Below are positions 5,436 through 12,421 of a stretch of DNA of 14,583 nt, in pieces. The stretch comes from Elusimicrobiota bacterium (GTDB lineage Bacteria; CAYTYR01; UBA6262): positions 1 through 14,583 of the forward strand of contig PMCA01000033.1 in assembly GCA_003153935.1 (NCBI GenBank). The letters are read 5' to 3'. A program made the translations under genes and the position numbers. Numbering within the stretch: the stretch's first letter is position 1; every line of letters begins with the position of its first letter. The notes beneath the pieces were generated by a model. That model was given only the letters and a program-made list of their open reading frames with translations, was not told where the DNA came from and did not search any database.

Positions 5436-5600
5436 CAATCTATTGAAAGGTCCCCTTTTCGGCTGCAATTTTTAATTTTTGGCTGCAACCGATATTTTAC
5501 TCGACTTACATAGCGCGTTGCTTATATGCTCGTCTCATAAAATTCGGTTTCGCTCAAAAATTATAAATTTCGCTACGAAAAAAGACCTTTCAATAAATTG
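5436..5600. repeat. 165-bp imperfect palindrome (long hairpin, MITE-like or RNA structure)
   Basis: This starts right after the ldh stop. The outer 17 bases CAATCTATTGAAAGGTC (5436-5452) pair with GACCTTTCAATAAATTG (5584-5600) with one mismatch. Pairing continues inward through TTTTCG/CGAAAA, a T-rich block and GGCTGCAACCGA against TCGGTTTCGCTC, so each arm is about 60 bases with roughly three-quarters matching. Each arm holds its own short direct repeat: GGCTGCAA at 5461 and 5481 on the left, TTTCGCT twice on the right. The element is far richer in AT than its neighbours. No coding frame and no clear target-site duplication are visible. It may terminate ldh transcription, form a structured RNA, or be a miniature inverted-repeat element. 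Confidence 0.75.
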
Positions 5601-5607
5601 TTTTTTC

Positions 5608-5636
5608 TTGACAAAACTTTTCAGAAGTATTATCAC
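5608..5636 (+). promoter_or_regulatory. Probable promoter of the NrdD-tail-like gene
   Basis: A perfect TTGACA (5608-5613) lies 8 bases after the palindrome. The -10 is less clear: TATCAC (5631-5636) gives 17-base spacing, TATTAT (5628-5633) gives 14, and TATAAG (5642-5647) would need a different -35. The leader before the ATG would be about 40 bases. Confidence 0.5.
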
Positions 5637-5683
5637 GATGTTATAAGCAGGTTAAATTAAAAATTTCCCAAGGAGGTAGAGGC

Positions 5684-6004
5684 ATGCAGGATGTGCAACA
5701 ATTTGTTGACGAGTTGAGTAAGACCGAGTATCTGCAGGTTGTGGAAGAGGACCATAGCGGTGATGCGGCCGAGGATTACTTAGTGGTAAAGAACAGCCTT
5801 AACGATGCTAAATATAAGATACTGGTAGATAGTATCTATAAATATGACTGGGCCAATCTGAAAAGGGTACTGGACGGCGGCGAAGCCAAGGTGATCGACC
5901 ATATCACTCGGATCGTCGGCTACTTCAGCAAAACCTCAAACTGGAATAAGTCGAAACTGGGGGAATTGGAAGATCGGCGTGCCGGAGATTACGCGGTCAA
6001 ATAA
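5684..6004 (+). CDS. Small protein with NrdD-like glycyl-radical tail
   Basis: The protein has 106 residues, with ATG 5684 behind a near-perfect AAGGAGGT binding site (5670-5677). The N-terminal 65 residues are acidic, with no recognised fold. Residues 72-103 (from DHITRIVGYF through SNWNKSKLGELEDR to GDY) resemble the extreme C-terminus of class III anaerobic ribonucleotide reductase NrdD. There an R-x-x-G-Y motif carries the glycyl radical and is followed by a W-N-x-G/S-K-x-x-E-x-x-D-R tail; Gly79 would be the radical glycine. The protein has no cysteine, so the zinc-binding cysteines that precede this motif in full NrdD are missing, and there is no catalytic barrel. It is transcribed alone and lies next to a superoxide reductase gene. 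It could be a replacement glycyl-radical domain, as GrcA/YfiD is for pyruvate formate-lyase, or a regulator; function is inferred. The similarity is from memory, not a search. Confidence 0.7.
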   Translation: MQDVQQFVDELSKTEYLQVVEEDHSGDAAEDYLVVKNSLNDAKYKILVDSIYKYDWANLKRVLDGGEAKVIDHITRIVGYFSKTSNWNKSKLGELEDRRAGDYAVK

Positions 6005-6021: not shown

Positions 6022-6060
6022 AAAAAGCGGAATGGCCCCATTGGCTGTTCCGCTTTATTA
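6022..6060 (+). terminator. Terminator after the NrdD-tail-like gene
   Basis: AAAGCGGAA (6024-6032) pairs with TTCCGCTTT (6048-6056). The inner TGGCC/GGCTG pairs with two wobbles around a CCATT loop. The tail is T-rich but interrupted (TTATTATATT), so it may be less efficient than the others in this window. Confidence 0.75.
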
Positions 6061-6128: not shown

Positions 6129-6569
6129 ATGAAATTGTTTGTGTGCAGTATGTGCGGTTACATAGAATTTAATGACGCCCCGGATAAATGTCCGGTTTGC
6201 GGAGCGCCCAAAACGGCTTTTACGGAAGACGCCAACGCCCTGAAAAAACCCGCCGACCCCAACAACTTGTCCGACCTGGATAAAAAACACATCCCCATGT
6301 TCCTGGTAAAGAAACAATGTGGTTTGATCCCGGACGGTTGCGTAGACGTGAATATCAAGGTCGGGGAAATAACTCATGTCATGGAAGCCAAGCACTGGAT
6401 CCTGTGGATCGATCTGTATCATAACTATAAGTACATCGGTCGGCATATGTTCGTTCCGGAGAAGGTTAACCCGGCGGTTGGTTTGCATCTGAAGGTTAAT
6501 ACGGGCAAGATCACGGCTATCGAGAACTGCAATATTCACGGGAAGTGGCTGGGCGAAGCGGAACTGTAA
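6129..6569 (+). CDS. Rubredoxin-superoxide reductase fusion
   Basis: This 146-residue cytosolic protein reduces superoxide to hydrogen peroxide without making oxygen, the usual defence in anaerobes. Residues 1-33 form a rubrerythrin-type rubredoxin domain with Cys6, Cys9, Cys21 and Cys24 to bind one Fe, so it can supply electrons in cis. Residues 48-141 are the superoxide reductase (neelaredoxin/desulfoferrodoxin) domain: ligands His54 (KKHIP), His83 (THVME), His89 (AKHWI), Cys134 and His137 (CNIHGKW) complete the 4-His 1-Cys site. The usual Glu of the EKH motif is Lys52 here; the following Lys53, important for catalysis, is kept. Cys64 and Cys71 are extra. The start is ATG 6129 behind an AG-repeat with GAGAGG (6116-6121). 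It has its own promoter, dyad and terminator, so it is monocistronic. Confidence 0.92.
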   Translation: MKLFVCSMCGYIEFNDAPDKCPVCGAPKTAFTEDANALKKPADPNNLSDLDKKHIPMFLVKKQCGLIPDGCVDVNIKVGEITHVMEAKHWILWIDLYHNYKYIGRHMFVPEKVNPAVGLHLKVNTGKITAIENCNIHGKWLGEAEL

Positions 6570-11180: not shown

Positions 11181-11530
11181 AAATACTAGGCACGGGCATC
11201 GACATTATTGAAGTAAAAAGAATACAGCAAACTTTGCGCAGTAATAAGAGGTTTAGTGAAAGAGTGTTTACCGCCAAAGAGATCGCTTATTGTGAAGGCA
11301 AGGTTAATAAATACCAGCATTATGCCGTCCGCTTTGCCGCGAAGGAAGCCATTCTGAAAGCTCTCGGCTCCAAAGGCATCGCCCTTAAGGATATAAGCAT
11401 ACGGAACCTGGACACCGGCAAACCTGAACCGGTATTGACCGGTAAATTGAAGAAACTGGAAAAAAATATTATCGTCTCCCTGTCACACTGCCAGGAATAC
11501 GCGGTGGCGCAAGCCATATATTATCGTTAA
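11177..11530 (+). CDS. acpS: Holo-[acyl-carrier-protein] synthase
   Basis: This 117-residue enzyme moves 4'-phosphopantetheine from coenzyme A onto the serine of acyl carrier protein, activating fatty acid synthesis in the cytosol. The magnesium-binding motif GTGIDIIEV at 5-13 (Asp9) and RFAAKEAILKA (52-62, Glu57) are intact, as is the C-terminal VSLSHCQEYAVAQA block. Length matches the short AcpS type. ATG 11177 overlaps the stop of the oxidase gene by four bases (ATGA). It precedes nnrD by 9 bases; acpS next to the YjeF/Nnr gene is a common bacterial arrangement. Confidence 0.95.
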   Translation: MKILGTGIDIIEVKRIQQTLRSNKRFSERVFTAKEIAYCEGKVNKYQHYAVRFAAKEAILKALGSKGIALKDISIRNLDTGKPEPVLTGKLKKLEKNIIVSLSHCQEYAVAQAIYYR

Positions 11531-11539
11531 GAGGTTGCT

Positions 11540-12421
11540 ATGACGGAAAAACTGATCACCAAAGAGGAAATAAGGAAACTTCTGCCGAAGCGCGCCAAAG
11601 ACTCTTACAAAAACGTTTTTGGTCATGTGCTGGTACTGGCAGGCTCAGCCGGCATGACCGGAGCGGCCGCCTTAGCCAGCGAGGGCGCGATCAGGATAGG
11701 GGCGGGTCTGGTAACTCTTGGCATTCCTAAAAGCCTGAACCAGGTCATGGCGGTAAAGCTGACGGAAGTTATGACCAAGCCCCTGGCGGAAACAGAAGAA
11801 CAGACTTTAAGTTTGAAAGCCCTGGAAACCATCAACAATCTTATGCAATTGCGCAACATTAACGCCGCGGTCATCGGGCCGGGATTATCCACTCATCCGG
11901 AAACGGTGGAACTGGTGCGCAGTTTTGTCTCCGCCAGTAAAGTGCCCTTAGTGATCGACGCGGACGCTCTTAACGCATTGGTCGGCAAATTAGAGATTTT
12001 CAAAGCCGCGCGGGGTCCCATCGTCATAACTCCCCATGCCGGGGAACTGGGTCGGCTGATCGCGCAGCACGCCACGCTGATCAAGAAGGAAAGGGAGAAA
12101 TATCCGGTTGAATTCAGCCGGGAAACGGGCGCTGTTTGCGTGCTCAAAGGTTACCGAACCATCATTACCGATGGGGAAAAAGTATTCGTGAACAATACCG
12201 GCAATCCCGGTATGGCAACGGCTGGGAGCGGCGATGTATTAAGCGGCATCCTGGGCGGATTGCTGGCCCAGGGGTTGGAGGCCATGGACGCGGCGAAAGC
12301 GGCGGTATATATCCACGGGTTAGCGGGGGACCTGGCCATAAAAGAGACCACAGAGATGGGACTGGTGGCCAGCGATATCATAAAAGCTATACCGAAAGCG
12401 TTGAAAGCCATTATTAAATAG
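11540..12421 (+). CDS. nnrD: ADP/ATP-dependent (S)-NAD(P)H-hydrate dehydratase, stand-alone
   Basis: The 293-residue enzyme is a ribokinase-like metabolite-repair protein that dehydrates damaged NAD(P)H hydrate back to NAD(P)H. Visible motifs are GHVLVLAGSAGMTGAAALA (28-46), AAVIGPGLS (109-117), VIDADALNAL (138-147), TPHAGEL (164-170) and the nucleotide/catalytic loop NPGMATAGSGDVLSGI (222-237, Asp232). In many bacteria this domain is fused behind the NAD(P)HX epimerase domain (NnrE); here only the dehydratase is present and starts directly, with AGAGG just before the ATG. A separate epimerase may be elsewhere. It closes the oxidase-acpS-nnrD operon; an inverted repeat follows. Confidence 0.93.
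   Translation: MTEKLITKEEIRKLLPKRAKDSYKNVFGHVLVLAGSAGMTGAAALASEGAIRIGAGLVTLGIPKSLNQVMAVKLTEVMTKPLAETEEQTLSLKALETINNLMQLRNINAAVIGPGLSTHPETVELVRSFVSASKVPLVIDADALNALVGKLEIFKAARGPIVITPHAGELGRLIAQHATLIKKEREKYPVEFSRETGAVCVLKGYRTIITDGEKVFVNNTGNPGMATAGSGDVLSGILGGLLAQGLEAMDAAKAAVYIHGLAGDLAIKETTEMGLVASDIIKAIPKALKAIIK

Follow-up and report, generated by a model that had tools for sequence, protein, structure and literature searches.

Does a small gene of an Elusimicrobiota bacterium encode a separate glycyl-radical domain for the class III ribonucleotide reductase NrdD, the enzyme that supplies anaerobes with DNA precursors? The question arises from the window, i.e. the whole stretch of 14,583 nucleotides that was analysed, for which a preliminary description had proposed either a spare radical domain for NrdD or a regulator of NrdD or its activase NrdG. 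For autonomous glycyl radical cofactors, published rescue concerns pyruvate formate-lyase (PFL) only; YfiD and Y06I alone have been validated, and for other enzymes of the glycyl radical class such cofactors have been a matter of speculation (PMC8683613). Work published from 2022 to 2025 treats the radical domain solely as the C-terminus of NrdD (PMC11226230, PMC12662201, PMC9669993), and a 2025 review mentions such cofactors only in connection with PFL damage. The account of split nrdD in phages (PMC3653736) deals with introns and inteins and with homing endonucleases. Among the open-access papers searched, none describes an NrdD radical subunit encoded apart from the enzyme. Whether PFL is the only glycyl radical enzyme with spare parts has been named an open question (PMC8683613), and the family of stand-alone proteins described below brings strong comparative-genomic evidence that it is not. 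The features of the locus are as follows.

5670..5676, forward strand: ribosome-binding site AAGGAGG, read from the sequence
5684..6004, forward strand: gene of the putative stand-alone glycyl-radical protein, an open reading frame of 106 amino acids plus stop with an ATG start
5684..5884, forward strand: N-terminal domain, residues 1-67, proposed docking domain (AlphaFold2, block pLDDT 80-94)
5888..6001, forward strand: glycyl-radical loop, residues 69-106, homologous to the NrdD C-terminus (NRDD match)
5918..5920, forward strand: codon of Gly79, the predicted radical glycine (alignment to Prevotella copri NrdD)
6024..6056, forward strand: candidate terminator-like hairpin in the gap between the small gene and the superoxide reductase gene (pattern scan, 14-pair stem)
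6129..6569, forward strand: superoxide reductase with a rubredoxin-like N-domain and a desulfoferrodoxin domain (PF01880, E=1e-18)

The small protein and its NrdD-like tail

The reading frame, preceded by its ribosome-binding site, encodes 106 residues without a single cysteine, and the motifs listed in the preliminary description sit in the translation where they had been placed: R76-I-V-G79-Y80 (within RIVGYF), N86WNKSK91, G93ELEDR98 and G101DY103. Residues 69-99 match the Pfam family NRDD (PF13597) with E=6.3e-6 at profile positions 532-560 of 562, the score of 25.6 bits falling 0.6 bits short of the curated cut-off of 26.2, and the same residues are weakly matched by the NCBIfam NrdD models. 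Each of the 58 stand-alone relatives in the alignment has an NRDD match with E<=0.05 (best 3e-9), several of them above the curated cut-off, and a profile of these 58 retrieves P. copri NrdD (8p23) with E=0.0014. Gly79 aligns to the radical glycine of the latter enzyme, position 715 in the 743-residue PDB chain and Gly711 in the published numbering (PMC11226230), the PDB chain having four additional residues. The proposed likeness to the radical tail of class III NrdD is thus confirmed by both the NRDD match and the P. copri alignment.

The radical glycine is invariant in 59 of 59 distinct stand-alone tails, a set retrieved with a pattern that demanded this residue; among the Pfam and tblastn matches, which made no such demand, no stand-alone protein lacking it was found either. 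The loop R-x-x-G-Y...W-N-x-S-K-x-x-E-L-x-D-R is conserved at the same positions in these tails and in 59 distinct tails of intact NrdD, with R, G, Y, W and N at 100% and K, E, L, D and R at 91-100% in both sets. Beyond the loop the resemblance ends: unlike NrdD, the small protein is encoded by a separate gene, carries a new N-domain and has neither the 10-stranded barrel nor the zinc cysteines, and its 106 residues offer no counterpart of the finger-loop cysteine or the allosteric sites. Comparison with same-family relatives (pS 0.74-0.80, with synonymous sites near saturation; pN 0.19-0.20) points strongly to purifying selection on the gene.

The N-terminal part had been called unrecognised and the protein free of zinc-site cysteines, and both statements hold: CxxC is absent from all 65 stand-alone proteins, and no Pfam family besides NRDD recurs across the 58 members. 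AlphaFold2, run on the small protein alone, predicts for the N-domain a helix, three strands and two helices (alpha-beta-beta-beta-alpha-alpha), followed by a tail of low confidence that is flexible except for one helix; such an arrangement would be expected of a docking domain joined to a loop that becomes ordered inside a partner. For the N-domain fold no PDB match was convincing, as Foldseek returned nothing below E=0.27 and the best VIA-align Z was 2.9; a viral predicted protein, A0A5Q2WAZ7, resembles the query at 40% identity across 94 columns (E=2e-4).

NrdD partners with and without a loop of their own

The genome to which the window belongs (1.75 Mb, 95% complete) encodes one NrdD, full-length with 834 amino acids and an intact loop (GITRIVGYYSRTDNWN), with an NrdG2 gene just upstream of it (TIGR02495, 2e-62), so that full-length nrdD and nrdG are both present and adjacent in the organism's own genome; no class I or II ribonucleotide reductase was detected there. 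Alignment-based scans extended the stand-alone family to more than 60 members of about 90-155 amino acids in Planctomycetota (anammox-like ones included), UBA6262, Elusimicrobia, Omnitrophota, Auribacterota and several unclassified lineages, as well as in one Lokiarchaeota bin and on about 15 IMG/VR viral contigs; searches of annotated phage and plasmid collections gave no convincing near matches to the small protein. In a broad sample of 386 genomes, NrdD was present in 13/13 carriers and in 150/386 genomes overall (4.6e-6 if independent), which does not favour the idea of homologues spread among genomes devoid of nrdD, and NrdG2 scored above its curated cut-off in 42 of the 47 genomes tested. 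The scan also yielded 22 genomes with an intact NrdD and no full stand-alone protein, G469 showing one additional weak match. Some anammox-like Planctomycetota (G624, G535, G649) possess two different stand-alone genes alongside an intact NrdD.

The NrdD C-termini of carrier genomes fall into two classes. The loop is intact in the window's family, in the anammox-like Planctomycetota and in G071, G073, G120, G387, G401, G412, G417, G422, G424 and G425. About 30 genomes encode an NrdD that retains the zinc knuckles and the finger-loop CCR motif, with the glycyl loop deleted or its Gly changed to Ser: the protein ends directly past the zinc site in G344 (...HCRTTQIPGITNRTT) and G147 (...CGSQNVPGVSWIEEIKG), the loop has decayed in G410 (VERTDSYHQPRNNW) and in G414 (IERLDSYDHRLANW, Gly to Ser), and vestigial Gly-to-Ser loops are found at L169, L229 and L292. 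Nearly all of these genomes encode the stand-alone protein, the exceptions being two drafts (G596, G519) in which the gene was not detected. NrdD requires a glycyl radical to start catalysis. Class I or II enzymes were undetectable in 23 of 28 loop-less genomes tested (G344 and G271 among the loop-less genomes being about 100% complete), although some of these absences could be false, since the same search gave no hit in 3 of 14 control genomes (for M. jannaschii, one of the three, this is probably correct). Taken together, the need for a radical and the rarity of alternative reductases make it most likely that the stand-alone protein supplies the radical in trans, and an NrdD without its radical glycine may therefore still function. 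In lineages with loop-less NrdD, the comparison of these sequences suggests that the small protein is most likely an obligate radical subunit, and its pairing with such enzymes is the strongest evidence for action in trans. Elsewhere, two diverged planctomycete NrdD (L299 and L300, in G588 and G526) have Asp at the place of the radical Gly (TRIADYF), and no stand-alone gene was found with them.

Because the loop-less genomes had first been met via the stand-alone gene, NrdD was also sought in 216 Planctomycetota drawn independently. Here the stand-alone gene accompanied 12 of 14 loop-less and 8 of 21 intact enzymes (p=0.006), and the draw contained a genome from outside the stand-alone scan (G660) that combines a loop-less NrdD with the stand-alone gene. 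A tree of 97 NrdD cores requires about 10 changes of loop state, at least 6 of them on well-supported branches, which hints at how a repair part could become an essential subunit; intact and loop-less enzymes are closely related several times, G073, for example, being sister to G215/G344. Phylogenetically independent pairs point in the same direction, being only 6 in number and non-significant. Distances between NrdD cores correlate with those between stand-alone tails (Mantel r=0.86) more than with those between N-domains (0.55), and tails are more similar to the NrdD of their own genome (identity 0.76) than overall (0.67; p=1e-4, ignoring kinship); shared descent contributes to both results.

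Considering tail, partners and co-occurrence, it is highly probable, as far as sequence comparison can carry the claim, that the product of the small gene serves class III ribonucleotide reductase as a glycyl-radical subunit acting in trans. NrdG2 would abstract hydrogen from Gly79, the small protein would dock on NrdD through its N-domain, and its loop would enter the NrdD barrel in place of the enzyme's own, so that the radical could reach the finger-loop cysteine and NTP reduction could start. Such a two-component glycyl radical enzyme becomes directly testable and would be a natural system for radical transfer between polypeptides. The preliminary description had also allowed for regulation, and a tail mimic binding NrdG or the NrdD active site, thereby inhibiting or timing activation, is compatible with tail mimicry alone and with occurrence in phages. 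A mere binder, however, would not require an invariant radical Gly, and where a loop-less NrdD is the only detectable ribonucleotide reductase, the genome must have a radical donor, for which an inhibitor is no substitute. We regard a decoy of this kind as very improbable; of the two earlier suggestions the radical part is favoured by the sequences, and regulation explains nothing extra.

Gene neighbourhoods and the role in the window's organism

Gene order (neighbours identified by Pfam) separates the two classes of partner, with p values that take loci as unrelated and ignore kinship. A superoxide reductase, rubrerythrin, Rrf2 or 4Fe-4S ferredoxin-type gene lies within 1.6 kb at 10/19 loci with intact NrdD vs 1/32 with loop-less NrdD (p=6e-5), while nrdD or nrdG lies within this distance at 0/19 vs 8/32 loci (p=0.02). 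The small gene lies after superoxide reductase and before rubrerythrin in G398/G120, and after loop-less nrdD and before nrdG in G406, G418 and G419; a loop-less nrdD is directly upstream of it in G416, G147 and G284. These neighbourhoods support a spare where NrdD is whole and a subunit where the loop was lost. They bear equally on the idea that the small protein serves another glycyl radical enzyme, for example PFL, on which the known spare parts act (PMC8683613): the gene lies between nrdD and nrdG in several genomes, the tail and the NrdD of a genome diverge in parallel, and NRDD occurs in 58/58 members with no other recurring Pfam family, that of the PFL/GrcA radical domain included. Hence another enzyme as the partner is hardly to be expected. 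Membership of the PFL/GrcA family was rejected on the same Pfam scan of the protein and its 58 relatives, NRDD being the only family that recurs.

Two genomes of the window's family, one of them Elusimicrobia bacterium UBA6262, carry full-length relatives with 73-75% identity. In both, a superoxide reductase gene follows 4-16 nt after the small gene and an Rrf2-type regulator precedes it. The window keeps the order of small protein and superoxide reductase; the Rrf2 gene is absent and the hairpin intervenes, which should be taken as a candidate only, as terminator-like sites of such kind arise at about the chance rate in the scan. A strong promoter of its own and a binding site had been ascribed to the small gene. 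Neither was confirmed: the perfect -35-like TTGACA at 5608-5613 is paired with a weak -10, the promoter scan upstream of the gene gave no site above threshold, and the supposed binding site belongs to a 165-bp imperfect palindrome. The hairpin before the superoxide reductase gene and the lack of a clear promoter count against assuming co-regulation in the window. The palindrome itself (5436-5600, 62-nt arms, exact 11-bp inverted repeats ATTGAAAGGTC) sits just upstream of the small gene, at the place taken by the Rrf2 gene in the relatives; a small mobile element is one possible reading of it, a regulatory hairpin another. Of the earlier case for a role in oxygen damage, the superoxide reductase neighbour thus stands and is kept in the relatives, and the argument from promoter and binding site is not supported; the role itself we infer from the gene order of the relatives.

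Since the window's NrdD retains its own loop, the small protein there is most likely a spare. We consider it probable, by analogy with known spare parts and from the gene order in the relatives, that it revives NrdD after oxygen damage: once oxygen cleaves or quenches the enzyme's own loop, the spare would restore activity in the manner of GrcA/YfiD. With GrcA/YfiD of E. coli and Y06I of phage T4 the small protein shares its size, a variable N-terminal part followed by a C-terminal copy of the radical tail of a larger enzyme, a link to oxygen damage, and carriage by both bacteria and phages. It differs from them in that a Pfam scan reveals no relationship, the tail copies NrdD instead of PFL, the N-domain is another one, and its enzyme has often lost its own loop, which gives the small protein the look of a required subunit.

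A routine second radical subunit, working beside the loop of NrdD either constantly or under certain conditions and marking a step towards fission, would also fit an intact NrdD. It agrees with the intact-loop cases lacking nearby stress genes (G073, G387, G422, anammox-like Planctomycetota) and with intact and loop-less NrdD as sister groups, as for G073 beside G215/G344; against it speak the oxidative-stress or redox-type regulator neighbours in the window's family and in several other intact-loop genomes. For the window's genome we consider a routine subunit possible and rather unlikely, and the oxygen-repair spare the preferred reading.

Phage-borne members and other proposed separate radical carriers

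On the viral contigs the stand-alone gene is found in a DNA-replication setting, among genes for DNA polymerase A, primase, HNH proteins and methylases and an adenylosuccinate-synthetase-like gene. None of these contigs bears an NrdD, which is weak evidence given that they are fragments. Carriage by phages recalls Y06I, the T4-borne spare for PFL (PMC8683613), and suggests that phages bring the radical part for the nucleotide metabolism of their host. From the viral relatives, and from the one NrdD of the Lokiarchaeota bin that lies on a possibly viral contig, one might conclude that the small gene is derived from a phage and useless to its host. We find this extremely unlikely for the window, where no phage genes were recognised and where the gene keeps its position and its full length across the family under strong purifying selection. 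A wider proposal, on which we are evenly divided, combines the trans-acting radical subunit with its distribution: class III ribonucleotide reductase may have a widespread, hitherto undescribed dissociable radical subunit, at first a spare in stress operons for repair after oxygen damage, repeatedly turned obligate, and carried by phages that revive or take over the host NrdD for phage DNA synthesis.

Some further observations touch on these members. On the possibly viral contig of the Lokiarchaeota bin (L065), a loop-less NrdD with what appears to be an intein-like insertion occurs together with a stand-alone gene and a thioredoxin-like gene. One of the phage-borne genes (L045) has a radical SAM gene at a distance of 1.1 kb (11278-12159); this neighbour is weakly similar to MoaA and NrdG2 and might encode a phage activase.

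A different separation was met in Clostridia-like genomes (L194-L219; about 25 of 150 genomes with NrdD). Their NrdD extends no further than the zinc site, apart from a helix-like tail in many cases, and the glycyl loop is encoded next to it, behind a short helix-like lead-in, by an open reading frame of 50-80 residues. As with the stand-alone family, the loop resides on a separate polypeptide and NrdD stops past the zinc site; here, however, the split is a simple adjacent one, the loop reads EVYSRVVGYxRP and the alpha-beta N-domain is missing. This split looks independent of the stand-alone family. No report of it was found in the literature searched. In two genomes (L205, L206) the separate glycyl-loop reading frame is fused to a thioredoxin-like domain, joining the radical carrier and its likely reductant in one protein.
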